From Geovibrio thiophilus (lineage in GTDB: Bacteria > Chrysiogenota > Deferribacteres > Deferribacterales > Geovibrionaceae): DNA of 64,000 nucleotides. A program made the position numbers and the translations under genes. The DNA lies in contig NZ_CP035108.1 in assembly GCF_004087915.1 (NCBI RefSeq), forward strand, positions 1,984,001-2,048,000, in the 5' to 3' direction. Position 1 is the first letter of the stretch. Each line of letters begins with the position of its first letter. Under the pieces are notes generated by a model that was not told the origin of the DNA, did no database searches, and saw nothing but the letters and a program-made list of their open reading frames with translations. Shown here piece by piece: positions 1,794 to 17,218 of this stretch.

Positions 1794-1798
1794 TTAAC

Positions 1799-3106
1799 AT
1801 GGCTGGCAGAATACTTATCGTTGATGATGAATCCAACCACAGACTGATGATGAAGCTCCACCTTGAGGACAGCGGATACAAAACGGAAGAGGCCTCAAAC
1901 GGTGCGGAAGCGCTTATTAAGCTTGATGATTTTGAGCCGGATGTAATCCTGCTTGACATGAAGATGGATATAATGGACGGATTGACCTTTCTTACCCACG
2001 TGAGCAGGCGGGGACTGGCTGTGCCTGTCATAGTGATAACGGCATTCTCAAGCGTTAAAACCGCTGTGGAAGCTATGAAGCTCGGCGCCGCTGATTATCT
2101 CACCAAGCCTGTGGACATTGAGCACATGCTTGAGACAGTGGCAAAAACACTGACTGAAAAAACTGTTATACCCCCGCTTGAATACGCCGAGGAATACGGC
2201 TTTGAGGGAGTTTACTCCGCCGACGGACTGGGAAAAATTATAGAACAGCTTAAGATGGTGGCTCCATTAAACGCCACTGTTCTGGTACTGGGCGAATCCG
2301 GCACGGGAAAAGAGCTTATAGCCCGTTCCATCCACACAAACTCACCCCGCAAAAACAAGCCCTTCATCGCCGTTAACTGCGCCGCCCTGAACGAAAACCT
2401 CATAGAAAGCGAGCTTTTCGGTCATATGAAAGGCTCCTTCACAGGGGCATCCTCCAATAAGGAGGGGCGCTTTGAGCTGGCGGACGGCGGAACAATATTT
2501 CTGGACGAAATAGGCGAGCTTCCCCCGCAGGTGCAGGCGAAGCTGCTTCGTGTTTTGCAGGACAGAACATTTGAAAGAGTGGGTGGAATCCGCACCGTCA
2601 CCACTGACGCACGCATTGTAGCCGCCACCAACAAAGACCTGAAAACACTTTCGGAAAAAGGCGAATTCAGGGAAGATCTGTATTTCAGACTGTCTGTTTT
2701 CCCTGTGAATCTGCCGCCTCTGCGGGAAAGAACACAGGAAATTGAGCCTCTGGTGAACTACTTCATATCAAAATACGCTCAGAGATTCGGCAAACTGATC
2801 AAAGGAGCGGAAAGGAATTATATTGATAAGCTGAAAAAATATTCTTTTCCCGGCAATATCAGAGAGCTTGAAAATATAGTCGAAAGAAGCGTGATTCTCT
2901 CAAAATCGGAAAGACTTACGCCTGACACACTGCCGCCGCTGGAGATAAAAAACGGCTGCGGCTCTCTGGATATGAGGGACAACGAAAAGGATCTGATAAT
3001 AAAGGCGCTGGAAAAAACAGGCGGAAACAAAACCAAGGCTGCGGAAGTTCTCGGAATCTCCCGCAGAACACTCCACAGCAAAATAAACGAATTCGGCATT
3101 AAATGA
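1799..3106 (+). CDS. NtrC-family sigma-54-dependent response regulator
   Basis: A complete three-domain regulator of 435 residues. The receiver domain (1-120) has the phospho-acceptor Asp at 53 and the KP motif at 103-104. The AAA+ domain has Walker A GESGTGKE at 165-172, and the sigma-54 contact loop reads GSFTGA at 212-217, a variant of the usual GAFTGA. The C-terminal Fis-type helix-turn-helix is at about 395-435 (NKTKAAEVLGISRRTLHSKI). It should activate sigma-54 promoters when phosphorylated by the kinase encoded directly upstream. The target genes are unknown. A hairpin follows the stop codon, so kinase and regulator probably form a two-gene operon. Confidence 0.93.
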   Translation: MAGRILIVDDESNHRLMMKLHLEDSGYKTEEASNGAEALIKLDDFEPDVILLDMKMDIMDGLTFLTHVSRRGLAVPVIVITAFSSVKTAVEAMKLGAADYLTKPVDIEHMLETVAKTLTEKTVIPPLEYAEEYGFEGVYSADGLGKIIEQLKMVAPLNATVLVLGESGTGKELIARSIHTNSPRKNKPFIAVNCAALNENLIESELFGHMKGSFTGASSNKEGRFELADGGTIFLDEIGELPPQVQAKLLRVLQDRTFERVGGIRTVTTDARIVAATNKDLKTLSEKGEFREDLYFRLSVFPVNLPPLRERTQEIEPLVNYFISKYAQRFGKLIKGAERNYIDKLKKYSFPGNIRELENIVERSVILSKSERLTPDTLPPLEIKNGCGSLDMRDNEKDLIIKALEKTGGNKTKAAEVLGISRRTLHSKINEFGIK

Positions 3107-3379: not shown

Positions 3380-4810
3380 ATGACGGCTGACAGCGGAAAA
3401 TTCCTTTACGAAGAGATACAGGAACTGATCCTAGAAATGGTGAAAACAGGAAAACTGCAAGCGGGAGGAAAGATTCCTTCCCTGCGGGAGACTGCGCAGA
3501 AGCTGAAAACCAGCGTTACCACTGTTATGAAAGCTTATATGGAACTTGAGCGCAAGGGCTTCATAGAATCACGCCCGAAATCGGGCTATTTCCTTGTGAA
3601 TACACAGATGCGCAGGCTCCCCCAGCCTGAAGCGACAAGCCCCTCACCTATCCCGAATCCCGTAAGCAAGTTTGATCTTGTGATGCAGCTTTACTATACA
3701 ATGGGCAAAACCAGCAAAATATCCTTCGCCGTGGCGGAACCGTCCTCAAAGCTTCTGCCTACCGATGAGCTTGCGAAGATGATGAAAAAGGCTATGGCGC
3801 AGACACCGAACCATTCGTCATACGAGACAATCGGCGGTCTGCCGGAACTAAAAAACCAGATAGCCTATCACATGCTCTCAAACGGAATAACAATGCCCAC
3901 AGATAAGATGATCATCACATCCGGCGGTTCGGAGGCGATTTACCTTGCCCTCAAAATACTCACCAAACCCGGGGACAGCGTAATTGTCGAGTCACCCTGC
4001 TATTTCGGCTATACAAACATTCTCCACGCGTTGGGCATCTATGCCCTTGAGCTTCCCACACACCCCGTGACAGGGATAGACAAGGAGGCTCTCCGCCGTG
4101 CCCTGATGAGGGATGACGTGAAAGCGGCAATCATCCAGCCCAACTACAACAACCCTCTCGGCTGCCTGATCCCCGAAAGAGACAGGCAGGAGATTACAGA
4201 GATGTTCCGCAGCAGCGGAGCGGTGATAATTGAGGATGACATATACGGCGACCTGCCCCATGAGGGGGAGCGCCCCTCCACGCTGTACCAGTATGACAGG
4301 GAATCTGTTATATACGTGTCCTCCTTCTCCAAAACAATCGCCCCCGGATACAGAGTTGCGTGGATGTGCTCGGAAAAATATCTCACACCCATGTTCAAAT
4401 ACAAGGCGTCCACCACGGTAGACACCGTACGCCCCACTCAGCTTGCACTGGCGGAGTATCTTGCATCCGGAAAATACACCCGCCACCTCAAGAAATTCAG
4501 AGGCACATGCGCCTCCTTAGTCGCCTCCTTCACCAACGCAATATCTAAATATTTTCCCGAAGGGACAAGAATCACCCGCCCCAAAGGGGGATTCATTCTC
4601 TGGCTGGAGCTGCCGGAAACGGCGGACACTCTTGCTATTTATCAGCGTGCCTCCCACGAGGGGATAGGCTTCGCCCCGGGAACGGTGTTCTCATCGCAGG
4701 ACAAATACAATAACTGCATGCGCATAAACTGCGCCGTGGTATGGAATGACGAAACTGAAATGTATCTGAAGCGTCTGGGCGAACTCTGCCACAAGGCGCT
4801 CAAGGAATAA
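3380..4810 (+). CDS. MocR-type transcriptional regulator (GntR HTH fused to aminotransferase fold)
   Basis: A 476-residue fusion. The N-terminal winged helix of the GntR family covers about 1-75 (KIPSLRETAQKLKTSVTTV, then KGFIESRPKSGYFL). A class I aminotransferase-like domain follows, with the PLP Schiff-base Lys at about 318 (SSFSKTIAPGYRVAW) and the phosphate-binding SGGSEAIYLA. MocR regulators bind PLP or amino-compound effectors and usually control a neighbouring metabolic gene. No obvious target sits beside it, since the downstream gene is convergent. A class I aminotransferase with an accessory domain is the alternative, but the intact HTH favours a regulator. Confidence 0.9.
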   Translation: MTADSGKFLYEEIQELILEMVKTGKLQAGGKIPSLRETAQKLKTSVTTVMKAYMELERKGFIESRPKSGYFLVNTQMRRLPQPEATSPSPIPNPVSKFDLVMQLYYTMGKTSKISFAVAEPSSKLLPTDELAKMMKKAMAQTPNHSSYETIGGLPELKNQIAYHMLSNGITMPTDKMIITSGGSEAIYLALKILTKPGDSVIVESPCYFGYTNILHALGIYALELPTHPVTGIDKEALRRALMRDDVKAAIIQPNYNNPLGCLIPERDRQEITEMFRSSGAVIIEDDIYGDLPHEGERPSTLYQYDRESVIYVSSFSKTIAPGYRVAWMCSEKYLTPMFKYKASTTVDTVRPTQLALAEYLASGKYTRHLKKFRGTCASLVASFTNAISKYFPEGTRITRPKGGFILWLELPETADTLAIYQRASHEGIGFAPGTVFSSQDKYNNCMRINCAVVWNDETEMYLKRLGELCHKALKE

Positions 4811-4880: not shown

Positions 4881-6071
4881 TTATTCAACTATGCACTGAG
4901 CGTTGCTGAATTTTACGTGAGCGTCAAGGAAGTGGAGTCTTTCCTTCTGAGCGAAGTTGCAGTCCTCTACAAGACCGAAATACATTTCGCCCGCTCTGCC
5001 GCCTGAGGCGCAGTGGAAAATGACGTCTCCTTCTTTAGGAAGAAGAGCAGTCACAGCCTCGCAGCCTTCTTTATATATTTTGTTCACGTCTATGTTTATT
5101 GCGCCTTCAATGTGACCGTTCTGGAATTCAGCGGGAGTCCTTACATCAACAATAATGATATTCGCGGGTCTGGAAGGAACAAGAGTCTTAAAGTAGTCCT
5201 TGTCAACGGAGCCGGGTTCGGCACCCTGTTTGATTGCGCCTGCGGGTGCGGCGGCAGCGGCAGCCTTAGGAGCGGCAGCAGACATTGTTCCGCCCATTTT
5301 TTCCCACTCGGGAAGACCGCCGGCGTAGATGAGGGGTTTCTTGTAGCCGAGTTTCATGGCTTCTTCGGCCACGATGTGTGATTTCACACATTCATAGCCG
5401 CCGCAGTAAACAACGAAAGTTTCGCTTTTTTCAGCGGGAAGAAGGTTTTTGAACTCTTCAAATTTGTTATCAGGAACATTGACAGAACCGGGGATTGTGC
5501 TTTTGGCGAAAACTCTTTCGGGACGTGCGTCAACGAAAAGAGTTTTGCCGTCTGCCTGAAGCTTTTTCGCTGTTTCAAAGCCTATTTCGATCGCCTGCCC
5601 CTGTTTTGTCCAGTCGGGCATACCGTCAAGGTAGATTTTTATGTTTGTATAACCTTTGTCTTTGAGCATTTTAGCGTCATAAAGGCTTTTTATGCAGTCA
5701 ACACCGCCGCAGTAAGTGATTATGTAAGTGTCTTTAGTCACTTTCTTTTCAGCGAGAACAGGGAAGAACTGCTCAAACTTGTTGTCCGGAACATTCACTG
5801 AACCGGGGATGTGTCCCTGATCGAATGTGCGTTCGGGGCGCGCGTCAACAAGAACACCTCTTGAAGCGTTGAACATGCCGTCACCGACAACCTTTTTAAC
5901 TTCATCGAATTTGACCATTTCAAAACCGGCTTCAATAATCTGTTCCGCAACAGATTTAGCTTTTGCAGCCTCGGCGGGGGCGGCAACCTCCTTCTTCGCC
6001 GTTCCGCAGCCTGCGGCAAAAAGAGCCATGCTGAACACGGCAGCCATAAGAATTCTGCTTACCATACGCAT
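4881..6071 (-). CDS. Lipoprotein with three rhodanese domains
   Basis: A 396-residue exported sulfurtransferase candidate. The signal peptide ends in a lipobox (ALFAAGC) with acylated Cys at 22. Three rhodanese modules follow at about 45-160, 165-262 and 288-390. Each has an active-site Cys candidate: Cys121 (TYCGGVDC), Cys223 (VYCGGYEC) and Cys354 (FHCASGGRAG). The first two loops are alike and probably arose by internal duplication, while the third is a distinct single-domain type. An Ala/Pro linker separates modules 2 and 3. It has a good ribosome binding site (GGAGGT). Placement downstream of a PsrA/PhsA-type operon suggests that it carries or transfers sulfane sulfur (polysulfide, thiosulfate) at the membrane surface. 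Substrate specificity is inferred. Confidence 0.9.
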   Translation of the reverse strand: MRMVSRILMAAVFSMALFAAGCGTAKKEVAAPAEAAKAKSVAEQIIEAGFEMVKFDEVKKVVGDGMFNASRGVLVDARPERTFDQGHIPGSVNVPDNKFEQFFPVLAEKKVTKDTYIITYCGGVDCIKSLYDAKMLKDKGYTNIKIYLDGMPDWTKQGQAIEIGFETAKKLQADGKTLFVDARPERVFAKSTIPGSVNVPDNKFEEFKNLLPAEKSETFVVYCGGYECVKSHIVAEEAMKLGYKKPLIYAGGLPEWEKMGGTMSAAAPKAAAAAAPAGAIKQGAEPGSVDKDYFKTLVPSRPANIIIVDVRTPAEFQNGHIEGAINIDVNKIYKEGCEAVTALLPKEGDVIFHCASGGRAGEMYFGLVEDCNFAQKERLHFLDAHVKFSNAQCIVE

Positions 6072-6491
6072 TAAAATACCTCCATCGGGGTTAATTAAAA
6101 TTTATAACTCAGCCTGCCGCTTCATCCGTACCGCTCAAGTCGGCACACACATGAGGAACAGGCATCTGCTATCATTGGCTGAGGCGCACTATTTTCGTAA
6201 AAATTAAACAAATAAATTATCAACAAAAAACTATTCCAGTATACATTTTTTTACGAAACTTACAATTTAAAAATTCAATAGTAAAAACAATTATTCTATA
6301 AGTATTCTAACTATTCAATATTAAAAAACTAAATTACCAAGTAATTATCTATGAATAATATCATAGATTAAATCTATAATATTAGCAAGTATTTATCACT
6401 GAACTAATATATAGAGATAAACAAATATCAGTTCCTTTATTCTGCCCGGGCGGCAGCCCCGCGAACAGGACTGCCGTCTGGGAGTATCCGT
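6072..6491. promoter_or_regulatory. AT-rich control region of the rhodanese gene
   Basis: There is no gene in these 420 bases. The stretch is very AT-rich between 6200 and 6430. It contains a perfect palindrome (ATAGATT A AATCTAT, 6363-6377), a GTATAC hexamer (6239-6244) and heptamers of the form TATTCNA at 6232, 6292, 6303 and 6312. The last three are spaced 11 and 9 bases, close to one helical turn. Such direct repeats are typical of response-regulator sites. I could not settle on a single promoter. Confidence 0.4.
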
Positions 6492-6523: not shown

Positions 6524-7735
6524 TTAATGATGCGCTTCTGTCTCAAGGTTAAGGAACTTCTCCGCTGAGAAATACAGCAGAAAGAAGACGCCGAAACCGA
6601 AGAGATAAATAAGCCACTCAAGAGCGGAAGGACTGTACATGGCAAGCCCTGCGGCATTCGTGACCACACCAGAACCCGCGAACCCTTCCCTCATAGGAGG
6701 AAGCTGACCCGCCACCACAAAGTCATACCTTGTGAAAAACAGACCGATAAGGAAAAGGAAACCCGCAAGGCTCAGCTTTTTGATGCTTCCCTTAGCGGTA
6801 ACTATAAGCGCAAGGGGCAGAACAACCGCGAGAAGCATTTCACCGAACCAGAAGTTGAAGCTCAGGGGACCGCTGACAAGCGCCATAACGGACATATAAG
6901 CATCGCCCGGTTCAGTGAATATTGATGAAAGCATCTTCCAAAGGTAAAGAAATATCATCACCCCTATTCCGCCGCCCATCAGCTTGCCGAGGGAGACCAT
7001 AGAGGGCTTGAGCTCTTGGGGAAGAGAGCCTTTGTAAACTATTGTGTGAACCAGTATGAGCAGCGCCGCTCCGGCTGTTACACCCGAAACCACAAGGAAT
7101 GTGGAAAAGTATATTCCGTGATACCAGTCTCTTGCGTTGAGTGAGCCGAAAACATAGCCGAGGTTGCTTGTGGCGAGTACACCCACAAGGAGGGCGAGAA
7201 AGCCCGCAACTGCGGCGAGTTTATGGTCGCTTTCAGTCTGGTTCGGCTTGAAGATCAGGTAAAGCTCAAAGGCGAGGATAACAAGCTCTATGCCGTAGAA
7301 CATACCCATCCAGAAAATAGGCGCCTTGAAGTTCGGGCTTATCATCATATAAACCATTCTCAGCGGGTTGCCTATCTCCATAAGGATTTGCGTGAATCCG
7401 GCAAGGAGAACTATAGTCGCCAGAACGACAATCCTCTTGCTGATCTTCGCGTATTTTTCATACCCGAAGGCATGCCCGAGACCGCCTATGAACGCTATAC
7501 CCGTGGAGATAATCACGAAATAGGCGTATGAGGAGATCAGAAGTCCCCAAGGAACCTGTCTGGTTACTCCGTATGATTCGTGGTGTCCTTTTACGAACAC
7601 AGTGATAACCGCGAATGCACCCACGGCGCAGAGAACAAGCCCTAGGATTATAAAAGGCATTGCGGGAATGTCCTTATTATTAACTATAAGGGACTTCAAA
7701 AAGGATTTTCCGTGGTTTTCTGTATGTGCTGCCAT
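6524..7735 (-). CDS. NrfD/PsrC-family quinol-interacting membrane subunit
   Basis: A 403-residue, strongly hydrophobic protein with eight or more transmembrane helices starting at about residue 25 (FIILGLVLCAVGAFAVITVF). It fits the NrfD/PsrC family, which takes electrons from menaquinol, or returns them, and passes them to a periplasmic FeS subunit. It is the last gene of an A-B-C operon with the catalytic subunit (8319-10634) and the FeS subunit (7749-8303), 13 bases downstream of the latter. The length and the A-B-C order match polysulfide/thiosulfate reductase-type complexes. Confidence 0.9.
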   Translation of the reverse strand: MAAHTENHGKSFLKSLIVNNKDIPAMPFIILGLVLCAVGAFAVITVFVKGHHESYGVTRQVPWGLLISSYAYFVIISTGIAFIGGLGHAFGYEKYAKISKRIVVLATIVLLAGFTQILMEIGNPLRMVYMMISPNFKAPIFWMGMFYGIELVILAFELYLIFKPNQTESDHKLAAVAGFLALLVGVLATSNLGYVFGSLNARDWYHGIYFSTFLVVSGVTAGAALLILVHTIVYKGSLPQELKPSMVSLGKLMGGGIGVMIFLYLWKMLSSIFTEPGDAYMSVMALVSGPLSFNFWFGEMLLAVVLPLALIVTAKGSIKKLSLAGFLFLIGLFFTRYDFVVAGQLPPMREGFAGSGVVTNAAGLAMYSPSALEWLIYLFGFGVFFLLYFSAEKFLNLETEAHH

Positions 7736-7748
7736 CAGAACATCCCCC

Positions 7749-8303
7749 TTATTTTATGTAGTGAAGCCGGGGTTTGGTATTTTTCTCCGGCTTAAGCTGA
7801 TATGAGTGATTACGGGCAAGCACTTTGCTTGCTTCACTTTCGGGATCGTTAAGATCGCCGAAAACCCTGACTCTGGTGGGGCATGTCTCAACACATGCCG
7901 GTTCTCTGCCCTCAGGCTGGCGCTGATAGCAGAAGGTGCATTTGTCTATGGCGTGAAGGTGAACGTTTTCATATCTCGCGTCATAGGGGCATGCTGTCAT
8001 ACATGCTTTACAGAGAATGCACTTGTCATAGTCGATGAGCACCACACCCTCGGCGGATTTGTAGGTCGCCTTCGTGGGGCAGACGCTGGCGCAGGGGGTG
8101 TTCTCGCAGTGCTGGCACTGAGAGGGCTGATATTCCTGCGAAATATTAGGATAAACCCCTTTCAGCTCAAGCTCGGTAACCCATATCCTGTATTCGTTTT
8201 CGCCCGGGTGGATCATATTCTCAAACTTGCAGGCAACGGTACATGCCTTGCAGTTGAGGCATTTTTTGGCATCAAGAACTATGCCGAATTTTTTAGTAGC
8301 CAT
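7749..8303 (-). CDS. Four-cluster ferredoxin-like electron transfer subunit (PsrB/PhsB type)
   Basis: A 184-residue protein with sixteen cysteines in four ferredoxin motifs: Cys15/18/21/25, Cys63/66/71/75, Cys95/98/101/105 and Cys122/125/137/141. This is the layout of the DmsB/PsrB/NrfC subunits that wire the molybdenum subunit to the membrane subunit. It lacks a signal peptide, as expected for a subunit exported by hitch-hiking on the Tat-signal-bearing catalytic partner. The start is preceded by GGAGGT. It lies between the catalytic and NrfD genes with short gaps. Confidence 0.93.
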   Translation of the reverse strand: MATKKFGIVLDAKKCLNCKACTVACKFENMIHPGENEYRIWVTELELKGVYPNISQEYQPSQCQHCENTPCASVCPTKATYKSAEGVVLIDYDKCILCKACMTACPYDARYENVHLHAIDKCTFCYQRQPEGREPACVETCPTRVRVFGDLNDPESEASKVLARNHSYQLKPEKNTKPRLHYIK

Positions 8304-8318
8304 TATACCATTACCTCC

Positions 8319-10634
8319 CTACGCCTTGCTTACGGTTACAAAGGTTTCGTGCATTGCGGCGTTTCCCGAGATGGGTTCAATGTAGTCCTCAAGTATCGCC
8401 GCCTGAGAGGCGCCCTTCTGGTAAACAAGGCTCATTCCCTTGGAAATACGTCCGAAGCCGTGAGCATAGTATACGCAGTCGGGGCGGATTTTTTCCGTAA
8501 CCTCGGCTCTGAGCGACTGTTCGCCCACTGAACTCTTCACAACAACTTTATCCCCGTTTTTGATACCGAGCTTAAAAGCCTCTTTGGAGTTTATCCAGAG
8601 AGTGTTCTCCTTCTGTATCTCCCAGAGATATTCGTTGTTCTGTGTGCCGGTGTGGGTGTTCCAGCCGTGTCTGCCGAGAATGAAACGGAACTGACCGTTT
8701 TTAGGCTGTCTCGCTCTTCTGTAAACAGGGAGCGAATCAAGCCCTTTTTCAGGGTATTTCACATTGGTGAATTCTATTTTCCCGCTTCTGGTCTTAAACC
8801 TGTAAGCGTCGTTCTTGGTTGTGCCGTAGACACCCTGATCGGTTTTATAGATCACGCCTTCTTTAAGGAGCCTTTCGTAGCCGTTTTCATAACCGCTTAC
8901 CTGATATTTTATATAATCCTGTATGGGTGCGTGGAGTATTGCTTCGACAAAGTCTTCCTTGAAATATTCAAGCTCTTCTTCATCCGTGTCATCCCAAAGT
9001 TCGGGAATCTTAAGCATTTCGTCCACTATGCCGGCTGTGATCTCAAACATTGATTTTGTCTGGAAAACAGGCTCAACACACGCCTGACGGAAGGTGGCTA
9101 TAGGCCATATACCGGCAAGACTGTGCACCACGTCCCATCTTTCGAGGTAGGTGGATTCGGGAATAACAAGATCCGCATAGTAGGCGGTATCGGACATCTG
9201 TATATCTATCATACAGATGAAGTCCATCATTTCCATCATTTTCAGGGTCTTGACCCTGTTGGGAGCGGCTTCCACGAAGTTCTGCTTGTAGACCATCATC
9301 ATCTTGACAGGGTAAGGCTCGCCTCTGAGAACGGCTTCCCTGAATCTGACCCAGCTTCCGTCCTTCTCGCCGAGGTAAGCAACGGAATCAAGAGGGAGTC
9401 CGGCCTCTTTTCTTGCGTCATCCGGCAGGTTGTTGTCAAACTCTCCGAAGGATTCAACATCAAGCCTTTCCTCAACCATATCATAGAAGGGGTACATAAC
9501 ATCAGGAGTCTTAAGCGGAACACCCGCTTTTGGAACTATGCCGCCCGGAACATCCCAACAGCCGCAAAGGGCGGGGATAATCGCACAGGCTCTGCGGAAG
9601 GCAACGTCATCCACATACCATGATGTTCTCCTGCCCGGGTAAATTACTGAGCGGGGAGCATATTTAGCGAACTCACGCGCGCACCACCTTATTTCGGATG
9701 CGGGGATTTCACACTCCTTCTCAGCCCATTCAGGGGTGTACTGCTGAACATGAGCTTTAAGGTCTTCAAAACCTTCGGTCATATTCGCGACGAATTCTTT
9801 ATTATAAAGCTCTTCGTTTATGATCACATTTATCATGCCGAGCATGAAAGCCATATCGGTAGCCGGTTTCACAGGATACCACCTGTCGGCCTTCGCTGCC
9901 GTGTTGGTGAACCTCGGATCGAGAACAACAAGCTGCTGACCCTTGGGTCTGTAGCGCAGAAAGTCCATTGAATCCGGCGTTACAAGCGCCTCTGCCCTGT
10001 TTGCTCCGGGCATTACCACAAACATGGCGTTAGCCAGATCCGCATCGGGGTAAACTCCGTAAACGGATGACCAGCCCTGTATTGTGGAAGAGAGACAGAG
10101 TGAAGGGTGGCGCACTGTGTTAAGTGAGCCGTAGGTCTGTGCGAGCATCTGAAAACTGCCTTCCTGAAGCCCTTCGGATGAGAAAAACGCCACTGATGAA
10201 CGGTTTTCATATTTTGTTTTGGCTTCAGCCAGCTTCTGAGCGACTATCTGAAAAGCCTCTTCATAAGAGATTTTTCTCCATTTATTTTCGCCTCTTTCGC
10301 CGTCTCTCACCAGAGGTGTTTTAAGCCTTTCGGGGTTGTAGGGTTCTTCCGCGCCTGCGTTGCCTCTTGCGCAAAGCATTGAGCGGCTTTTGAAAAAATG
10401 GGGGTTGGGGTTAAGCTTTTTGATGCGTCCGTTAACCACGTGGGCGTAAAACCCGCACTTGTTAACGCACATTTCACAGGACGAGGCTATATGCTTTTCG
10501 CCTTTTTCCCCTGTCTGCGCATCACCGTGTCCGCTTTCCGCAACTGCCGTAAGGGATGAAAGATTCGCCGCTGCCACTGCCGCTGCGAATGCCCCTCCGG
10601 AAGCCGCCAGAAACTTCCTGCGACTGAGCTTCAT
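8319..10634 (-). CDS. PsrA/PhsA-family molybdopterin oxidoreductase, catalytic subunit
   Basis: A 771-residue Tat substrate: SRRKFLAASGG at 4-14 is followed by a hydrophobic stretch. A [4Fe-4S] site is formed by Cys53, Cys56, Cys60 and Cys88. Cys180 (RHPSLCLSSTI) sits where PsrA/PhsA-type enzymes place the cysteine ligand of molybdenum. The C-terminal molybdopterin-dinucleotide-binding region starts near 640 (FRFILGRHGWNTHTGTQNN). In the family this periplasmic enzyme reduces polysulfide, thiosulfate or related oxyanions (tetrathionate, selenite and arsenate relatives exist). The sulfur-handling neighbours favour polysulfide or thiosulfate, but the substrate is not proven. The ribosome binding site AGGAGGT lies 8 bases from the ATG. 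A TorD-like chaperone is encoded upstream. Confidence 0.92.
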   Translation of the reverse strand: MKLSRRKFLAASGGAFAAAVAAANLSSLTAVAESGHGDAQTGEKGEKHIASSCEMCVNKCGFYAHVVNGRIKKLNPNPHFFKSRSMLCARGNAGAEEPYNPERLKTPLVRDGERGENKWRKISYEEAFQIVAQKLAEAKTKYENRSSVAFFSSEGLQEGSFQMLAQTYGSLNTVRHPSLCLSSTIQGWSSVYGVYPDADLANAMFVVMPGANRAEALVTPDSMDFLRYRPKGQQLVVLDPRFTNTAAKADRWYPVKPATDMAFMLGMINVIINEELYNKEFVANMTEGFEDLKAHVQQYTPEWAEKECEIPASEIRWCAREFAKYAPRSVIYPGRRTSWYVDDVAFRRACAIIPALCGCWDVPGGIVPKAGVPLKTPDVMYPFYDMVEERLDVESFGEFDNNLPDDARKEAGLPLDSVAYLGEKDGSWVRFREAVLRGEPYPVKMMMVYKQNFVEAAPNRVKTLKMMEMMDFICMIDIQMSDTAYYADLVIPESTYLERWDVVHSLAGIWPIATFRQACVEPVFQTKSMFEITAGIVDEMLKIPELWDDTDEEELEYFKEDFVEAILHAPIQDYIKYQVSGYENGYERLLKEGVIYKTDQGVYGTTKNDAYRFKTRSGKIEFTNVKYPEKGLDSLPVYRRARQPKNGQFRFILGRHGWNTHTGTQNNEYLWEIQKENTLWINSKEAFKLGIKNGDKVVVKSSVGEQSLRAEVTEKIRPDCVYYAHGFGRISKGMSLVYQKGASQAAILEDYIEPISGNAAMHETFVTVSKA

Positions 10635-10700
10635 ATGAATGGACCTCCTGTTGTATCACTAATTTTTCCGACATATTCGTTTACTAACTGACTGCATATT

Positions 10701-10720
10701 GTATACAATATACAAGTATA
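10701..10720. promoter_or_regulatory. Overlapping inverted repeats upstream of the molybdoenzyme operon
   Basis: GTATACAATATAC (10701-10713) is a perfect inverted repeat (GTATA, 3 bases, TATAC). It runs into a second palindrome, ATATAC AA GTATAT, so three half-sites lie in a row. The same 13-mer occurs at 14253-14265 upstream of the torD-like gene. It resembles GntR-family operators in general form, but the regulator is unknown. The rest of 10635-10929 shows only a small palindrome (ACAAATATTTGT, 10752-10763) and the terminator at 10896. Confidence 0.55.
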
Positions 10721-10895
10721 TCTATATCTGTCTTTCTCAATATATGCAAGTACAAATATTTGTTTTTATAACACTGTCACAATTGCTATCAAACCACTGG
10801 GAAAAGCATTTAAAGTATTTATGACCTGAATCTGATGTGCGGAACGGAACATGGGTAAAAAGCGCAATACGGTCATTTATCAGCCTTTTATAAAA

Positions 10896-10920
10896 GCGGG
10901 AGCTCTTAGTGAGCCCCCGC
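10896..10920 (-). terminator. Intrinsic terminator of the porin gene
   Basis: The stem GCGGGAGCTC / GAGCCCCCGC (one mismatch) has a TTAGT loop and is followed on the minus strand by TTTTATAAAA. It starts 10 bases past the porin stop codon. Confidence 0.8.
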
Positions 10921-10929
10921 GTGAAAGTG

Positions 10930-12933
10930 CTAGAAACTGTAAGTGAAGGAACCGTAGAATTTCTCTACCTTATCAACAACAGGCATCATCGCATGAAGAC
11001 CGTTTACGTCATCAATTTTGGTGGGCGCGCCCATGGGGTTGCCGCTGCCTGTGTAGTCATAGTCGAAGTACTGATAGCCGATGGTGGCGAACAGCTTATT
11101 GTCGACTATGGGCTGGTGATAGTAAACTTCGTAAACTTTACCTCTTACGGCAAGCTTGCTGCCTACAAGATCATCCTCGCCAGCTGTAAAGTTTATCCAG
11201 TTTTTGCTTCCCTGATTGTACTCAAAGCCGAGCTTGCCGCCGGTGAAGGGAAGGTCGGGGGTTGTAACGCCCACCCATACCATGTTGCCGTGCTTGCTGC
11301 TGTCTGAGCCGAGAAGCTTGTCCTGATCCATAAACTGGAACATGGGGTTGTTTGATCTGCCGTCCGGATGAGTAACGCTGAGGTTGTAGGAAGCGAACCA
11401 GTTAAAACCGTAGTTCTCGCCCTGAACAAGGAAGGCGTGCATTTCTATGTCGCCGATTTCCGCTGTGGGCTCGAATCTTGAGGCATAACCGCCGTAGTTG
11501 GCGTTAAACGTGTACTCATCGTACTCGCCGTCCAGATTGTAGTCTTTGCCGCTTATGTAAAAGGGCATAGCCACCATTCCGGTGAAGCCGTCCGTCACGC
11601 CGATTCCTCTGGCGTAGTTGTACCATACCTTATACTGCTCATCGTCATAGAACTTAAAGATGATTCCGCCGAACTCAACATCGTCTACATTAGGATTGGA
11701 AATGAGACCGTTGTTCGCGGAAAGTGCGTTCGCAGTACCCCACTGACCTTCAAAGCCTTTGCCGTAGCAGAATTTAATAAAAGAGCCGGGAACCCATGCG
11801 TCAAAATCGAACTGGAGAGACGCTCCGTCGAAGTTCCACTGGATGATAGAAGCCACGGGAGAACCGCCGAGAACCGAGTTCTCATGGTTTTCATACCCGG
11901 GACCATAGGTGGAGGGGCGGCGTCCGAATGAGAAATGGTAGCCCATATCGCCTATATTGTTCTTATAGACGAAGTAGGCTCTCTCTACATGCACAGAATC
12001 ATCTGTCGGAACAGCGGCGGAGTTGCCGTCAAGATACATACTCTTGAATGTTCCGTCAAAAAATCTGATGTTGTTGGAATCGCCCCATGATTTATACATA
12101 ACAAGCCTGCCGGCGAAGCTGAGGTTATTATTGACCTTGCTGTTGAGACGAAGGCGAAGCTTGTTTGTGAACATTGAGCTGTTTTCTGTGTCATACTTTC
12201 TGGGTTTGACACCTTTGAACATGGATTTTACAACCGCAGCCTCTGCAGAGGAAAGCGTGCTGTCGCTCATGAGGTAAGCGAATGCCATCATGTTTGCCAT
12301 CATCTGCGCCTGAGCAGCCTGAGCAGGGTCGTTGAGATCGAGCCCGTTCATTCCGGCGACAGTTATAACAACGTCCTGATAGTCGGTAACGCCGTTCATG
12401 TTGCCGTCAGCGAGACCTGTCATCCCTGCGAAGTCGATCATGCCGTCAACCCAGTCGGTATTGCTGAAGTTGCCTGTACCGTCGCTGCCGATAAGGGCTC
12501 CGAAGTTCATCTGAAACTCCTGCGCAACCTCAGAGGTTCCCATAAGCTCTGTGTAGAGAGCTCCGAAGTCCTGCTGATAGTTCTGCATGAAAGCATCGTT
12601 CCAGAAGTCGCCGTTTGTGTCCCATGCGGAACCGCCGGCGCCGGAAATAAGGGTATTATTGAGCCAGAGCCCCATCATGTCGTTAGCGTATGCTGGAAGA
12701 GCCCGCACATCGTTATAGCTGATGGAGTCAAGCCTTGTCCTCAGCTCTATGCTGAGATTGGTTTTGTCAAGCGCTGTGTGACGCTCTGTCACATCCACAC
12801 GCTTGCTGATCGTGTCTATCTCAGACTGCAATGCGGTTATCTGATTTTTGAGATCCTCAAGGGAAGGATCCGCCGCAAAAGCAACCGAGACAGACATGAA
12901 CACTGTTAAAAGCGCAACGAGAAGTTTGTTCAT
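10930..12933 (-). CDS. Outer-membrane porin-like protein, probably DUF3373 family
   Basis: A 667-residue protein with a Sec signal peptide (LLVALLTVFMSVSVAFA) and a short coiled coil at about 25-55 (LEDLKNQITALQSEIDTIS). A long beta-rich region follows, ending in the aromatic beta-barrel signature FYGSFTYSF. It lacks cysteines typical of enzymes. From memory it best fits DUF3373 porin-like proteins, which are often found near periplasmic sulfur and nitrogen oxyanion reductases; I could not check this. It would let sulfur substrates or products cross the outer membrane. It has its own terminator and is separated from the cytochrome gene upstream by two hairpins (12966-13046), so its expression may be uncoupled from that gene. 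Confidence 0.75.
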   Translation of the reverse strand: MNKLLVALLTVFMSVSVAFAADPSLEDLKNQITALQSEIDTISKRVDVTERHTALDKTNLSIELRTRLDSISYNDVRALPAYANDMMGLWLNNTLISGAGGSAWDTNGDFWNDAFMQNYQQDFGALYTELMGTSEVAQEFQMNFGALIGSDGTGNFSNTDWVDGMIDFAGMTGLADGNMNGVTDYQDVVITVAGMNGLDLNDPAQAAQAQMMANMMAFAYLMSDSTLSSAEAAVVKSMFKGVKPRKYDTENSSMFTNKLRLRLNSKVNNNLSFAGRLVMYKSWGDSNNIRFFDGTFKSMYLDGNSAAVPTDDSVHVERAYFVYKNNIGDMGYHFSFGRRPSTYGPGYENHENSVLGGSPVASIIQWNFDGASLQFDFDAWVPGSFIKFCYGKGFEGQWGTANALSANNGLISNPNVDDVEFGGIIFKFYDDEQYKVWYNYARGIGVTDGFTGMVAMPFYISGKDYNLDGEYDEYTFNANYGGYASRFEPTAEIGDIEMHAFLVQGENYGFNWFASYNLSVTHPDGRSNNPMFQFMDQDKLLGSDSSKHGNMVWVGVTTPDLPFTGGKLGFEYNQGSKNWINFTAGEDDLVGSKLAVRGKVYEVYYHQPIVDNKLFATIGYQYFDYDYTGSGNPMGAPTKIDDVNGLHAMMPVVDKVEKFYGSFTYSF

Positions 12934-12965
12934 AAACTGCCCCCATAAAAAGGAATGAAATTATA

Positions 12966-13046
12966 TATAAACAGCGTTGAAGGGAACGCTGGTTTATATC
13001 TTTTAACTGTTTGTCTGAGCGGGTGTTGAAGGGAACACCCGCTCAG
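12966..13046. repeat. Two consecutive hairpins with identical loops
   Basis: Hairpin 1 (12966-12998) pairs TATAAACAGCGTT with AACGCTGGTTTATA, with one bulged G. Hairpin 2 (13015-13046) pairs CTGAGCGGGTGTT with AACACCCGCTCAG perfectly. Both close on the same plus-strand loop, GAAGGG. They fill the gap between the cytochrome and porin genes, so on the minus-strand transcript they could stop, protect or process the RNA. No U-run follows, so a simple intrinsic terminator is unlikely. Confidence 0.7.
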
Positions 13047-13058
13047 GCACTTAGTTTA

Positions 13059-13400
13059 TCAACCGCAGGTTTCGGGCTGATCGCTGTCCAGCGCGTGACC
13101 TTTCAGATATTCGTATATATCTTCCCAGTCGCTGGGCTGAAGAGCATCGTGCGAAGCGCCTTTTGCTTTGTGAGCAGCATCAATCTTAGCGTGGTTGCCG
13201 TCAAAGAGGGCCTTCCACTGAGCCTGAGTCTTTGAAACAGGAGAAAGATCAGAAGCCTTGCCTCCTTCATGACATGCCGTACGGCAGCTTTTCTTCCATG
13301 TTCTTTTGCCTTTTCTTTCATTTCCCGCAGCAAACGCAGTCGCAACTGCGAAAGCGAGGATAAGAGCAATTGTGAGAACCATAACCGCTTTTCTTTTCAT
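13059..13400 (-). CDS. Small periplasmic c-type cytochrome with CX3CH motif
   Basis: A 113-residue protein with a Sec signal peptide (VLTIALILAFAVATAFA). One haem-attachment-like motif reads SCRTACHEGG, so three residues rather than two separate the cysteines (CX3CH). The rest (WKALFDGNH, then DWEDIYEYLKGH) has the look of a class I cytochrome fold, and a lone Cys lies at position 112. Canonical haem ligation uses CX2CH; CX3CH is rare and needs either a permissive maturation system or means altered haem binding. It lies between the chaperone and porin genes of the sulfur island, so a role in electron transfer with the periplasmic reductase or flavocytochrome is likely. Confidence 0.85.
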   Translation of the reverse strand: MKRKAVMVLTIALILAFAVATAFAAGNERKGKRTWKKSCRTACHEGGKASDLSPVSKTQAQWKALFDGNHAKIDAAHKAKGASHDALQPSDWEDIYEYLKGHALDSDQPETCG

Positions 13401-13445
13401 GTTTTGCCTCCATAAACCAACAGGGCGTTTGCCCCTTTATTTTTA

Positions 13446-14132
13446 TTATCCTTCGAAGATCAGCTCTCCGAAAATCTGCTCTGCATCCGCAAGAAAGCCC
13501 TGAGTAAGTCTCCCTGCGGTTTTATAAAACTCCAGCTCCGCCTCTTCGGTTACTTTTAAAGCGAACTTATCGGCGAAGGCGGGGAAAAAATCTCTCATTA
13601 TTTCAAGAAGCGCAAAAAAGCTGCCTATTCCGCAAGGTTCCGCACCTGATGCTATCTTTTCAGTGAGAACCGAACAGAACTCAAGGACAACGCTTACGTG
13701 ATCCTCAAGCTCGGTCACGGAAGCGCTCATTACGAAGCCTTCCTTCTCCATGAGCTCCTTAAGGCGCATCATCTGCTCGCCCCAGAGGAGCTTTTCGTCA
13801 CTGAGCCAGCATGAGGCATAAGGGTTTGCTTTCATTCCGCCGGGTGCGTTTATAAAGAGACGCACATAGTCGTACTCCATTTCACGCCTGTCGGTGAGCT
13901 CAAGAATGCCCGCCGTATATTCATCAATAAATGACTGAAATTCGGGAAGATACCTTTCGAGGGTGTCGTAAACCGGCTTATCCGGATACCTGAAAACAAG
14001 GGAGAGAAACATAAAAGCGGCGGACAGACTGACCAGACCGTTTTTATCAGGATTCGCGCCGGAAAGAACACTGATGGCGCTTTCATAGTTATTTTCCGCA
14101 AGAGCGGTTTTTAGTCCCGTCATTGAACTCAT
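13446..14132 (-). CDS. TorD/DmsD-family molybdoenzyme chaperone
   Basis: A 228-residue, all-helical cytoplasmic protein. It has the family motif YDYVRLFINAPGG (Y/F-x-x-L-F followed by a Gly/Pro-rich turn) and NPYASCWL after it. TorD-type chaperones bind the Tat signal and help insert the molybdenum cofactor into their partner. The obvious partner is the enzyme at 8319-10634, which belongs to the same strand and island. The start is preceded by GAGG about 10 bases upstream. The upstream region carries two strong inverted repeats (14192 and 14253), so it may be the regulated first gene of chaperone-cytochrome-porin. Confidence 0.88.
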   Translation of the reverse strand: MSSMTGLKTALAENNYESAISVLSGANPDKNGLVSLSAAFMFLSLVFRYPDKPVYDTLERYLPEFQSFIDEYTAGILELTDRREMEYDYVRLFINAPGGMKANPYASCWLSDEKLLWGEQMMRLKELMEKEGFVMSASVTELEDHVSVVLEFCSVLTEKIASGAEPCGIGSFFALLEIMRDFFPAFADKFALKVTEEAELEFYKTAGRLTQGFLADAEQIFGELIFEG

Positions 14133-14191
14133 AATAAAAAAACCTCGGGGCTGATTACGTATTAATCTACTTTATCTATCTGTTATTCACC

Positions 14192-14211
14192 ATATTCCAA
14201 GATTGGAATAT
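14192..14211. promoter_or_regulatory. Perfect 20-bp palindrome upstream of the torD-like gene
   Basis: ATATTCCAA GA TTGGAATAT is a perfect 9-bp inverted repeat with a 2-base centre, 60 bases upstream of the chaperone start codon. The size and symmetry fit a dimeric repressor or activator site. The half-site TATTCCA recurs in the rhodanese control region (6232-6238). The regulator is unknown. Confidence 0.6.
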
Positions 14212-14252
14212 AGCTACTATACCGATGTATAAAAAAATGTAAAGAGTTTTTT

Positions 14253-14265
14253 GTATACAATATAC
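14253..14265. promoter_or_regulatory. GTATACAATATAC operator-like repeat (second copy)
   Basis: The same 13-base inverted repeat as at 10701-10713, extended on both sides to a shared TTGTATACAATATACA. It lies 120 bases upstream of the torD-like gene. Farther upstream is another inverted repeat, ATGTTTT with 10 bases to AAAACAT (14301-14324). The segment from 14325 to 14520 is AT-rich and shows nothing else I can support. Confidence 0.55.
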
Positions 14266-14609
14266 ATTTTCTTTCACATTATAAACACTAGTTACATCAT
14301 ATGTTTTTCGCTTATTGAAAACATCTATCCCGCTGACGTGTTACTTTTTAATCACGTAACTTATTTGTCACTAAAGCAATTAGCATTAAAACAATTCGGG
14401 AATAAAACAGATGATAAAACATAGAGGCAAGTATTTAATTCAATAGATAAGAAAATATAATAATCAAAATATTATGTTTTTTGAATGAATCCCAATCAGA
14501 TTCCGCAAAACAAAGAAAACCGCCGCGAAAAACAGCGGTCAGACTGATGACAAACTCAGTATTTGGCACTGAGATGAGCATGTTTAACTCAAGTCTGTAT
14601 TGCTAATAA

Positions 14610-14716: not shown

Positions 14717-16024
14717 TTACGTCAGCATGTCCGACCAGATGCTTAGCGCCCAGTCCTCAGCATGTTTTGCGTAGAGCTCCGAACGCTCGGGGGAAAGCCC
14801 GCCGCCCCTGCTGATTATCAGCTTAGTCGTTTCGTCATAGTCGTACACACCTGATATGAATATAGCCTCCCTGTCATTAACCATGCTGTAGCATGTATTA
14901 ACAAGGTTCGGCTTCAATGGCTCCTTGCCGTTAAGCTGATTCACAACAGCGGCAGCCGCTACCTTGCCCATTGAATTGGCGACAAAGCCTGATTTCGGAA
15001 CAGGACCCACGGTTCCGGCATGGGTGGAGTCTCCGAGCACAAAAACATCTTTCAACGCCTGAGATTCAAGGGTAAACGCCTGCACCCTCACCCAGCGGTC
15101 GGTTTCGGGAAGAAGTCCTGCCTTGTAAGCAAAAGAGCCCGCCTTCATGTCCGGAATAATGTTCGCCGCGCCGCCTTTAAAATCACCGTTGGTTGTTTTC
15201 ACAACTCTGCTTTTTACATCAACACCTTTCACGGCAGTGTCAGGCACATACTCTATGACATCCTTATAATAATCATCCCACGCCGCATGGAAGAGCTTGC
15301 CCTTGGAGGCAATATCCTCATTGGCATCAATGACTATCAGCTTAGAACCCTTCTTGTTGTTCTTGAGGTAAAAAGCTATCTGGCACGCTCTTTCATAAGG
15401 ACCCGGAGGGCATCTGTATGGAGCAAGAGGAACAGTAAGCAGGACATTCTCGCCGTTATTCAGGTTTACAAGCTGCTCACGGAGGAGTGTTGTCTGCCTG
15501 CCGGCCTTGTAAGCATGGGGGAAAACATCCTCAGCGTCCTTTGACCAGCCTTCTATCTTATCATACATAAACTCTACGCCCGGGGAGACTATGAGCTTGT
15601 CATACTCAATGCGCCCTGCCGCGGTGATAAGCTGCTTCGCAGCGGCATCAAGCCCCGCAGCTTCTGTCTTTATAATTTTGATGCCGTAGTTTTTCACCAG
15701 AGCATCGTATGTAAAAGTGATTTCCTGAAGGGATTTCATTCCGGATAAAACAAGGTTGCTCATCGGGCATGAGACAAAATTATCCAGCCTCTCCACAAGC
15801 ACAACCTCAATGGAAGGATCGCCGAGCTTAACATATTTCGCAGCCGTGGTCCCTCCCCAGCCGCCGCCGAGAACGACTACTCTTTTGCCGGATTTTGGCA
15901 GAATAACCTGCTCCTGCTGCTTATTAAAATTAAGATTCAGGCTTCCCGCACAGCCGGAAATACCCGCCGAGGCTATGACAGCGGCGGAAGCCTTAACAAA
16001 GTTTCGTCTGGATATGCCGCTCAT
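14717..16024 (-). CDS. fccB: Flavocytochrome c sulfide dehydrogenase, flavoprotein subunit
   Basis: A 435-residue protein with a Tat-like leader (SRRNFVKASAAV) and a possible lipobox (GISGC). The FAD-binding Rossmann motif is VVVLGGGWGGTTAAKY at about 48-63. Two conserved cysteine contexts of the family are present, SCPMSNLVLSG and YRCPPGPYERAC, which supply the redox-active disulfide near the flavin. A second dinucleotide motif, VFVLGDSTHAGTVGPVPKSG, is near 335-355. FccB oxidises sulfide to sulfur or polysulfide in the periplasm and passes electrons to its cytochrome partner. The gene overlaps that of the cytochrome subunit by 4 bases. In this reducing organism it may work on sulfide made by the neighbouring reductase, or in another direction; that is inference. 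Confidence 0.85.
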   Translation of the reverse strand: MSGISRRNFVKASAAVIASAGISGCAGSLNLNFNKQQEQVILPKSGKRVVVLGGGWGGTTAAKYVKLGDPSIEVVLVERLDNFVSCPMSNLVLSGMKSLQEITFTYDALVKNYGIKIIKTEAAGLDAAAKQLITAAGRIEYDKLIVSPGVEFMYDKIEGWSKDAEDVFPHAYKAGRQTTLLREQLVNLNNGENVLLTVPLAPYRCPPGPYERACQIAFYLKNNKKGSKLIVIDANEDIASKGKLFHAAWDDYYKDVIEYVPDTAVKGVDVKSRVVKTTNGDFKGGAANIIPDMKAGSFAYKAGLLPETDRWVRVQAFTLESQALKDVFVLGDSTHAGTVGPVPKSGFVANSMGKVAAAAVVNQLNGKEPLKPNLVNTCYSMVNDREAIFISGVYDYDETTKLIISRGGGLSPERSELYAKHAEDWALSIWSDMLT

Positions 16025-16605
16025 CTGTTCCTCCCCAGTTCTGTGAGATAAGACACCATGGCGTCTATCTCAACTTCGCTAATATCTTTGAGAAAAACCA
16101 TTTCATCCGAAGGGATCAGCCCCGCCTTATACTTCATCAGCACATTTTTCAGGTATCCGGGCGCCTGTCCGGTTATTGCGGGTGTTTCGCCCTCGCCCTT
16201 TCCGTTGTTAACGTGACAGCCGAAGCAGGAATAATCCTCAATGAGCTTAACAGTCGCGCTCATATTGTATTCCTTTACCTTAACCTTGGAATCGACCCAT
16301 TTTTTCTCGGCGTACCATTCGGATACAGCGATAATCTGTTCCTCGGTGTAGCCGGATGCCATGAGAGACATCTCAACACTGTGGGAGCGTTTTTTCGCTT
16401 TCAGCTCAATGAGAACTTTCTTAAGATATTCGGCGTTCTGACCGCCGATAGTGGGGATGAATGTGCCGGGTGAAGCACCGTAGGTTCCGTGACAACCCGC
16501 GCACGTTTTTGCGGTTCTTTCCGCAGTGTCTCCCCCTGCCGCTGCCCATGCGCTGATGGACACGAGCATAAGGAGAGACAACAGATAAAGCGCTGACCTC
16601 TTCAT
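16021..16605 (-). CDS. fccA: Dihaem cytochrome c, flavocytochrome c cytochrome subunit
   Basis: A 194-residue periplasmic protein with a signal peptide (LYLLSLLMLVSISAWA) and two haem motifs, CAGCH and CFGCH. Each starts one of two similar cytochrome domains (compare PTIGGQNAEYLKKVL with PAITGQAPGYLKNVL), the layout of FccA. I start at 16605 because GGAGGT lies 5 bases before that ATG; a longer reading to 16728 has no such support and overlaps the lipoprotein gene. The stop overlaps the fccB start (ATGA), which indicates translational coupling. It should accept electrons from FccB and hand them to the periplasmic cytochrome pool. Confidence 0.85.
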   Translation of the reverse strand: MKRSALYLLSLLMLVSISAWAAAGGDTAERTAKTCAGCHGTYGASPGTFIPTIGGQNAEYLKKVLIELKAKKRSHSVEMSLMASGYTEEQIIAVSEWYAEKKWVDSKVKVKEYNMSATVKLIEDYSCFGCHVNNGKGEGETPAITGQAPGYLKNVLMKYKAGLIPSDEMVFLKDISEVEIDAMVSYLTELGRNR

Positions 16606-16654
16606 TAATACCTCCGTTCTTCTCAAGGGAAGAAGACTGGGTAACCGTATGAGG

Positions 16655-17158
16655 CTATTTGAGAAGCTTGGTAAACGACCTTCCGTCGGCATATCCGTAA
16701 ACGTCAGCCGAACGCACAGCCGCAACACCCGCAGTCCCTGCCTCGCCTTCCAGAATTTCCACCATTGAATCGGGTGAAATTATCTTCACCGGTTCGCCGG
16801 TTAAATTACGGTTCCCATACAATGATACACCTTTATTTGAATAAGCCAAATTCTTTGTGAGAGTAAAATTGTCCACTTTTGAATTAATAGCGGTCAAGGT
16901 TTCCCTGTAAGCCACGAAAAGCTCTATAATCTGTTTGTATTTTTCCTCAATCGCCATGTTTCTGCGGTTGATTATCTCTATATCCTGTTTTACCTCATGA
17001 AGCTGGGCAGTAAGCTCTCCGAGCCGTTTGGAGTTCTCAGTTTCTCCGGCGGAGGAAAATCCGGCGAGTATCGCCTGCCCCGTTTCAACCTTCGGCTCCT
17101 TTGCACCGCAGGCAGCTAAAAAAGCACATACATAAATAAGACAGATAAGTTTTTTCAT
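16655..17158 (-). CDS. Putative lipoprotein with coiled coil, unknown function
   Basis: A 167-residue protein. The signal peptide ends in the lipobox FLAAC. A heptad-rich segment is at about 40-95 (LGELTAQLHEVKQDIEIINR), and a C-terminal beta-rich part (VSLYGNRNLTGEPVKIISP) looks like a small SH3-type domain. I do not recognise a family. I take the ATG at 17158 rather than 17173 because the lysine-rich signal peptide begins there. It is 49 bases upstream of fccA on the same strand, so it probably belongs to the fcc operon. Confidence 0.7.
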   Translation of the reverse strand: MKKLICLIYVCAFLAACGAKEPKVETGQAILAGFSSAGETENSKRLGELTAQLHEVKQDIEIINRRNMAIEEKYKQIIELFVAYRETLTAINSKVDNFTLTKNLAYSNKGVSLYGNRNLTGEPVKIISPDSMVEILEGEAGTAGVAAVRSADVYGYADGRSFTKLLK

Positions 17159-17218
17159 AAGAAGACACCCCATAATGCGGAAATTTTAAAAATACAGCCA
17201 CAAATACACTCAAACCCC

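Follow-up and report, generated by a model that had tools for sequence, protein, structure and literature searches.

A GTATAC-box operator shared by two sulfur-respiration units of Geovibrio thiophilus and its probable place in a global regulon of a tandem GntR/FCD regulator pair

Several described regulators bear on how bacteria might set central metabolism and respiration together. HgtR of Geobacter sulfurreducens (GSU3364) is a global repressor of gltA, atpG (F0 b') and nuoA (PMC7726332, PMC7894505). Among FCD/GntR regulators, CitO of Enterococcus has an FCD domain with metal and citrate and activates from sites upstream of promoters, its metal ligands being Asn147-His191-His213 and those of TM0439 three His (PMC4746285); NanR of E. 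coli occupies short GGTATA repeats, arranged in tandem, as several adjacent dimers (PMC8012715); and PdhR of E. coli is a pyruvate-dehydrogenase regulator with wider metabolic roles (PMC10572922). The operator consensus published for the FadR subfamily is NyGTM-N0-1-KACNy (PMC4494728). Here we consider a short word, GTATACAATATAC, that precedes two transcription units in a stretch of 64,000 nucleotides of the Geovibrio thiophilus chromosome (NZ_CP035108.1, positions 1,984,001 to 2,048,000; "the window"), one headed by phsA, for a thiosulfate/polysulfide reductase-type molybdoenzyme, and the other by torD. Both copies very probably serve as operators in a global regulon governed by two GntR/FCD regulators encoded in tandem, which we call A and B; the motif, its target genes, its conservation, the site at the promoter of A, the co-occurrence of motif and pair and the correspondence of two operator forms with two promoter geometries are all computational observations.

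The word is present exactly at 10701-10713 and 14253-14265, in control regions and enclosed at both places in the shared 16-mer TTGTATACAATATACA, just as the original prediction, made from the letters of the window, had described for an identical 13-base inverted repeat. The accompanying view that chance is an unlikely source of such a match is borne out by an expectation for the exact 13-mer of 0.0004 per window over both strands (first-order Markov estimate) and by five window matches at up to two mismatches, compared with a shuffle mean of 0.47 and with 0 of 100 shuffles reaching five. The strict structure of the 13-mer is GTATA-CAA-TATAC, with arms of 5 bp, or 6 bp counting the flanking T/A, and its letters are better read as GTATAC hexamer boxes at a spacing of 7 bp. 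At 10701, where an extended operator had also been proposed, an extra degenerate box indeed lies on either side (GCATAT 7 bp away and GTATAT after 8 bp).

In the whole genome (2,997,552 bases) there are four exact copies of GTATACAATATAC, two of them in the window, and 12 matches with one mismatch allowed; the exact motif is not scattered through coding DNA. At one mismatch or fewer, TGTATACNNTATACA precedes icd (the monomeric isocitrate dehydrogenase), sdhC (of a succinate dehydrogenase/fumarate reductase operon), phsA, torD, mdh (malate dehydrogenase), a gene for a GltD-like oxidoreductase (an iron-sulfur flavoprotein), nuoA (NADH dehydrogenase), acnB (aconitase B), the atpF operon (ATP synthase b subunit), gltA (citrate synthase) and, at a distance of 121-123 bp, the GntR gene of regulator A. 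The operators of the two window units recur in relatives ahead of the orthologues of both genes, phsA in 10 of the genomes read and torD also in 10. Neither outcome that the original prediction had named as refuting it, scatter through coding DNA or absence from related promoters, was therefore observed.

The distribution of the motif in the order Deferribacterales was determined by counting GTATACNNTATAC in 39 genomes, with symmetric sites scored on both strands and the reversed pattern as the control. Families f1, f2, f3, f7 and f8 (24 genomes) yielded 297 strand matches versus 57 for the reversed pattern, and families f4, f5 and f6 (15 genomes) yielded 25 versus 40. A GntR/FCD regulator was found among the genes that lie behind operator sites, and when it was searched back over the same genomes, regulator A (61-100% identity), adjoining the 45-49% identical paralogue B, was detected in all but one of the 24 motif-rich genomes (23); the remaining one, G018, is 88% complete and has only a fragment and a distant match. 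The homologue search over the 39 genomes did not find the regulator in f4 and f6, and the two f5 genomes hold one homologue each, at 36-37% identity, with no operator closer than four mismatches. Upstream of A, a site with at most one mismatch occurs within 200 bp in 23/23 genomes (shuffle fraction 0 to 0.003), often in a row of three boxes spaced by 7 bp. In G. thiophilus itself, A and B are 46% identical, lie 55 bp apart on one strand and are located ~3.3 kb from the citrate synthase operator and ~0.4 Mb from the window; the proposal that one operator serves a single dimeric-type regulator is supported, with this distant pair as the candidate.

Regulators A and B clearly belong to the FadR subfamily (FCD) of the GntR family. 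The N-terminal winged helix (PF00392, E 2e-19) and the C-terminal FCD domain (PF07729, E 2e-22) both score above cut-off, and the TGTATACA boxes fit the published FadR-subfamily consensus. Residues N137, H141, H185 and H207, an Asn/Asp-His-His-His metal-ligand set, are invariant in 21 A and B sequences, and His also occupies the three His columns in 7xp0, a relative of solved structure. None of the named GntR regulators in NCBIfam (NanR, PdhR, LldR, GlcC, PhnR and others) scores above its curated cut-off, TIGR03338 being the best (132 versus 271.5 bits) and NanR reaching 66 versus 260. The GntR domain match begins at residue 15 of P0004, leaving no room for an N-terminal extension of the 32-residue NanR type.

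The sites fall into two forms that differ in their placement relative to promoters. For this comparison, 156 distinct exact sites in 24 genomes were collected and laid out by target. The target groups consist of exact GTATACNNTATAC matches plus five G. thiophilus entries added by hand (gltA, acnB, nuoA and A, with one or two mismatches to GTATACNNTATAC or its 15-mer form, and the exact gltD-like site), and the denominators for each gene cover only the genomes with an exact match for that gene. The -35 counts exclude two acnB rows at distances above 150 bp, two fumA rows at distances above 200 bp and a G008 row at 175 bp whose gltD-like label we judged false; part of the sites was read in G017, G018, G022, G023, G036 and G038, and a few listed sites elsewhere were also omitted. 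Operator-centre positions for the -10/+1 groups take one row per genome, and the shuffles in the -35 test preserve base composition only.

The asymmetric form is that of gltA, sdhC, torD and a small cytochrome gene; of their 41 rows, 31 have GTATATTGTATAC on the coding strand, nine have the reverse, GTATACAATATAC, and one has a variant. A -35-like (TTGACA-like) word follows the operator by 5-12 nt at gltA in 8/8 rows (shuffles, 0.42), at sdhC in 17/17 (0.85), at torD in 8/10 (0.42) and at the cytochrome gene in 6/6 (0.33), and the operator centre is at -49 to -53. The symmetric form, GTATACWGTATAC, accounts for 57 of 63 rows at icd, mdh, the gltD-like gene, regulator A, acnB and two rhodanese genes. 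Here the -35 lies 14-38 nt before the operator (icd 20/20, shuffles 3.3; mdh 5/5, 0.8; gltD-like 17/17, 2.7; A 12/12, 2.1; acnB 4/4, 0.55; rhodanese 2/2, 0.33), which puts the operator centre at -7 to +16, over -10/+1. Operator form follows promoter geometry, a new finding whose main strength is that four to five families agree on it for citrate synthase, sdhC, torD, icd and gltD-like.

The two window sites share a word and not a position, and different modes are predicted at their promoters. The torD operator, centred at about -50, has the upstream geometry. The phsA operator has the asymmetric word, to which four genomes add a third box, and its place is downstream of a weak -35 of TTGC type; it likely covers the start region or lies just past the likely promoter. 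By eye, a TTGC word precedes it in 10/10 genomes, only two of which reach five of six matches to TTGACA.

The observations suggest a scheme in which each GTATAC hexamer would be one GntR-type box, an operator would consist of two or three boxes at 7-bp spacing, and A, B or both would bind it. A site just upstream of -35 (gltA, sdhC, torD) would activate, and a site over -10/+1 (icd, mdh, acnB, the gltD-like gene, A, phsA) would repress. The FCD pocket, in which the metal-ligand residues are kept, might sense a small carboxylate such as a cycle intermediate; on the strength of these residues and the precedents of CitO and NanR, we infer that the pair senses a carboxylate and acts as repressor at -10/+1 and as activator at -50. 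The ligand would flip the regulator between operator forms and both target sets would be induced together. Such a regulon would link the citric acid cycle to the generation of NADH/NADPH and ATP and to the Phs/Psr-type reductase and its TorD-cytochrome-porin unit, and acetate oxidation and the respiratory acceptor branch would be set together. A bolder version, which we offer tentatively and would expect to fail somewhat more readily than to hold, is that spelling encodes sign: a single base change, GTATAC to GTATAT in one box (usually the promoter-distal one), would turn a repressing -10/+1 operator into an activating -50 one, tandem paralogues with nearly the same DNA-reading helix would run one regulon, and one carboxylate signal would induce the sulfur-respiration branch and all of the citric acid cycle at once, an arrangement kept across the order, with the pair and its operators also in a second, distant group.

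The activating half of this scheme has a serious competitor, in which all the sites are repressor sites and the position upstream of -35 merely blocks polymerase in another way. Described FCD regulators are mostly repressors. An overlapping set of targets (gltA, atpG, nuoA) is repressed by HgtR in Geobacter (PMC7726332). Set against this, an operator centred at -49 to -53 leaves the -35 free, the upstream position and the asymmetric form have been kept together in four to five families (gltA, sdhC, torD), and an FCD regulator, CitO, is reported to activate from sites upstream of promoters (PMC4746285). We regard repression throughout as quite possible, if not the outcome we would expect.

That some other transcription factor binds the operator, with the GntR pair merely one of its targets, seems unlikely. 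The site at the promoter of A speaks for regulation of A and does not identify the binder; the GTATAC boxes, however, match the GntR/FadR consensus, pair and motif co-occur over the 39 genomes, and at E<=1e-10 the regulator query has only one other FCD-type match in the G. thiophilus genome. In addition, the operator precedes the pair in a second, distant group. There, a species-genome scan detected distant regulator homologues at 42-45% identity, and three genomes (those of loci L147, L148 and L149) also hold the tandem pair, with an operator before its first gene at two mismatches in L147 and one in L149, the best in L148 being three mismatches. The same three genomes have exact operators before malate dehydrogenase (L234, L235, L239) and before aconitase B (L237, L246), with others next to genes for ATP synthase (L233, L240), the gene names being judged by eye from translations. 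The symmetric operator occurs in 7 of 12 genomes of this group, with no control match. In L147 and L148 the GntR pair is located near a formate-dehydrogenase-like molybdoenzyme cluster (open reading frames judged by eye).

The local sulfur-island regulon under a dedicated regulator that was originally envisaged is highly improbable: two of the four exact genome copies do lie in the window, but the sites mark central carbon and energy genes genome-wide and order-wide, and no FCD-type regulator adjoins the window sites among the proteins scanned; in the product of the MocR-type gene at 3380-4810, an aminotransferase domain takes the place of FCD. This MocR-type gene was rejected as the source of the binder, not being what follows the motif across genomes. 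ModE-, FNR- and MetJ/ribbon-helix-helix-type binders were likewise considered and dropped. The tandem heptanucleotide repeats of Geobacter metallireducens resembled a precedent, but their letters are GGGACCG (PMC2700814).

Several observations weigh against a global regulon of A and B, or against the rule that form follows geometry. At two mismatches the scan of the G. thiophilus genome is at background (81 strand matches versus 72 for the control), and even at one mismatch or fewer three places are in coding DNA (1027063, 2076545 and, at the atpZ/atpI junction, 575928) and the one at 1231941 has no clear target. The target classes were recognised by eye in alignments before counting, and genomes within a family are not independent. 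The phsA site, asymmetric and yet not upstream of -35, breaks the rule and fits neither class cleanly; fumA misses the -35 criterion (0/3). The content of the regulon varies, no exact gltA site having been met in the Denitrovibrio/Seleniivibrio-type genomes read. Finally, the symmetric operator is present in 100 of 395 genomes of the Desulfobacterota (the phylum of the L153 genome), before other genes in the loci read, so that the word alone is not diagnostic of this regulator and was rejected as its universal marker. GTATAC-box operators probably serve several GntR regulators. In 9 of the 30 Desulfobacterota loci read (L262-L266, L269, L271-L273), a class-I-type fumarase gene follows GTATACWGTATAC at a distance of 36-60 bp; these sites probably belong to another GntR regulon, and by eye the symmetric word also precedes TRAP-type transporter and CoA-metabolism genes. 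One genome of this phylum, G234, contains nine reversed control patterns and no operator, an unexplained repeat.

The features of the two window units, of the neighbouring rhodanese gene and of the regulator pair are collected in Table 1. The protein specified by phsA has PhsA as its best NCBIfam match, at 499 of 694 bits and under the cut-off. GTATAC occurs 10 times in the window (5.5 expected), and one of these copies, at 6239 before the rhodanese gene, had been included in the original prediction. Its letters are present; an operator role is rejected for this genus, since the two same-genus relatives read have TATAAT at the aligned position, which makes the hexamer a -10 box. In five relatives of other genera (G001, G009, G013, G030, which we take to be Denitrovibrio, and G032) the rhodanese gene carries the operator with 0 to 2 mismatches, and membership of this gene in the regulon thus changes between genera.

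Table 1. Features of the phsA, torD and rhodanese units (window positions) and of the regulator pair (genome positions)
Feature	Position	Strand	Basis or detail
Operator cluster before phsA	10694-10721	.	15-mer TGTATACAATATACA at 10700-10714
phsA operator cluster, overlapping one-mismatch copy	10693-10707	-	motif scan
phsA operator cluster, further degenerate box GTATAT	10716-10721		sequence
Likely phsA promoter	10721-10749	-	-35 TTGCAT 10749-10744, 17-bp spacer, -10 TATAGA 10726-10721
phsA/psrA-like molybdopterin oxidoreductase (thiosulfate/polysulfide reductase type)	8319-10634	-	Pfam
4Fe-4S subunit	7749-8303	-	Pfam
NrfD/PsrC-like membrane subunit	6524-7735	-	Pfam
Operator TGTATACAATATACA before torD	14252-14266	.	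coding strand reads TGTATATTGTATACA
Likely torD promoter	14216-14243	-	-35 TTTACA 14243-14238, 16-bp spacer, -10 TATAGT 14221-14216
TorD/DmsD-like chaperone	13446-14132	-	PF02613; NCBIfam TorD below cut-off
Small c-type cytochrome	13059-13400	-	weak CBB3-type match
DUF3373 protein (porin of the original prediction)	10930-12933	-	PF11853
GTATAC hexamer before rhodanese gene	6239-6244	.	extended -10 part, TG-TATACT on minus strand
Three-domain rhodanese	4881-6071	-	Pfam
Regulator A	~2402476-2403141 (genome)	-	tandem pair, A then B
Regulator B	~2401770-2402420 (genome)	-	tandem pair

Other genes surround these units. The MocR-type regulator gene (plus strand; GntR and aminotransferase domains) adjoins the sulfur island and is convergent with the rhodanese gene, and a pair consisting of a sensor kinase and an NtrC-type sigma-54 response regulator (501-3106, plus strand) lies at the island edge. 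Upstream of the torD unit, at 14717-17173 on the minus strand, are genes for the flavoprotein of a flavocytochrome c sulfide dehydrogenase (14717-16024), a cytochrome c (16021-16728) and, at 16655-17173, a protein that matches no Pfam family; the motif scan of the window found no operator before them. Elsewhere in the genome, the exact operator at 1231941 (contig C1; L002/L124) is situated between mnhE (minus strand) and a gene for a Cys-rich, membrane-type small protein of 44 amino acids (plus strand), and two relatives of the genus have a symmetric site 211-213 bp before mnhE.

Members of the Deferribacterales oxidise acetate with sulfur, nitrate or metals. The listings returned by our literature searches showed, for this order, no global regulator described as controlling acetate oxidation or anaerobic respiration, and no regulon of this kind. 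A promoter word noticed at two sulfur genes has led to central metabolism, and comparing genomes allowed the operator geometry to be read. The results supply a candidate pair of regulators, a predicted list of targets and the hypothesis that a single base sets the sign of regulation. To judge from the genomes compared, an entire bacterial order appears to use the pair to adjust respiration in step with the citric acid cycle.

The described systems resemble this one in different respects. PdhR is a relative of A by sequence in the PDB, but a distant one (its NCBIfam model scores 44 bits on A against a cut-off of 330); it controls respiratory genes, and its operator differs from the GTATAC boxes. 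NanR requires its 32-residue N-terminal extension, which A does not have, and controls sialic acid genes, and CitO shares with A and B an FCD pocket with metal-ligand residues, whereas its regulon is local citrate utilisation and not the whole cycle with respiration. HgtR is the closest functional parallel. The passages on HgtR that were read describe no paired regulator and no two-geometry operator, and the comparison is one of targets; gltA, atp and nuo targets are common to both, the operators of G. thiophilus preceding gltA, atpF and nuoA, as an overlap of predicted targets.

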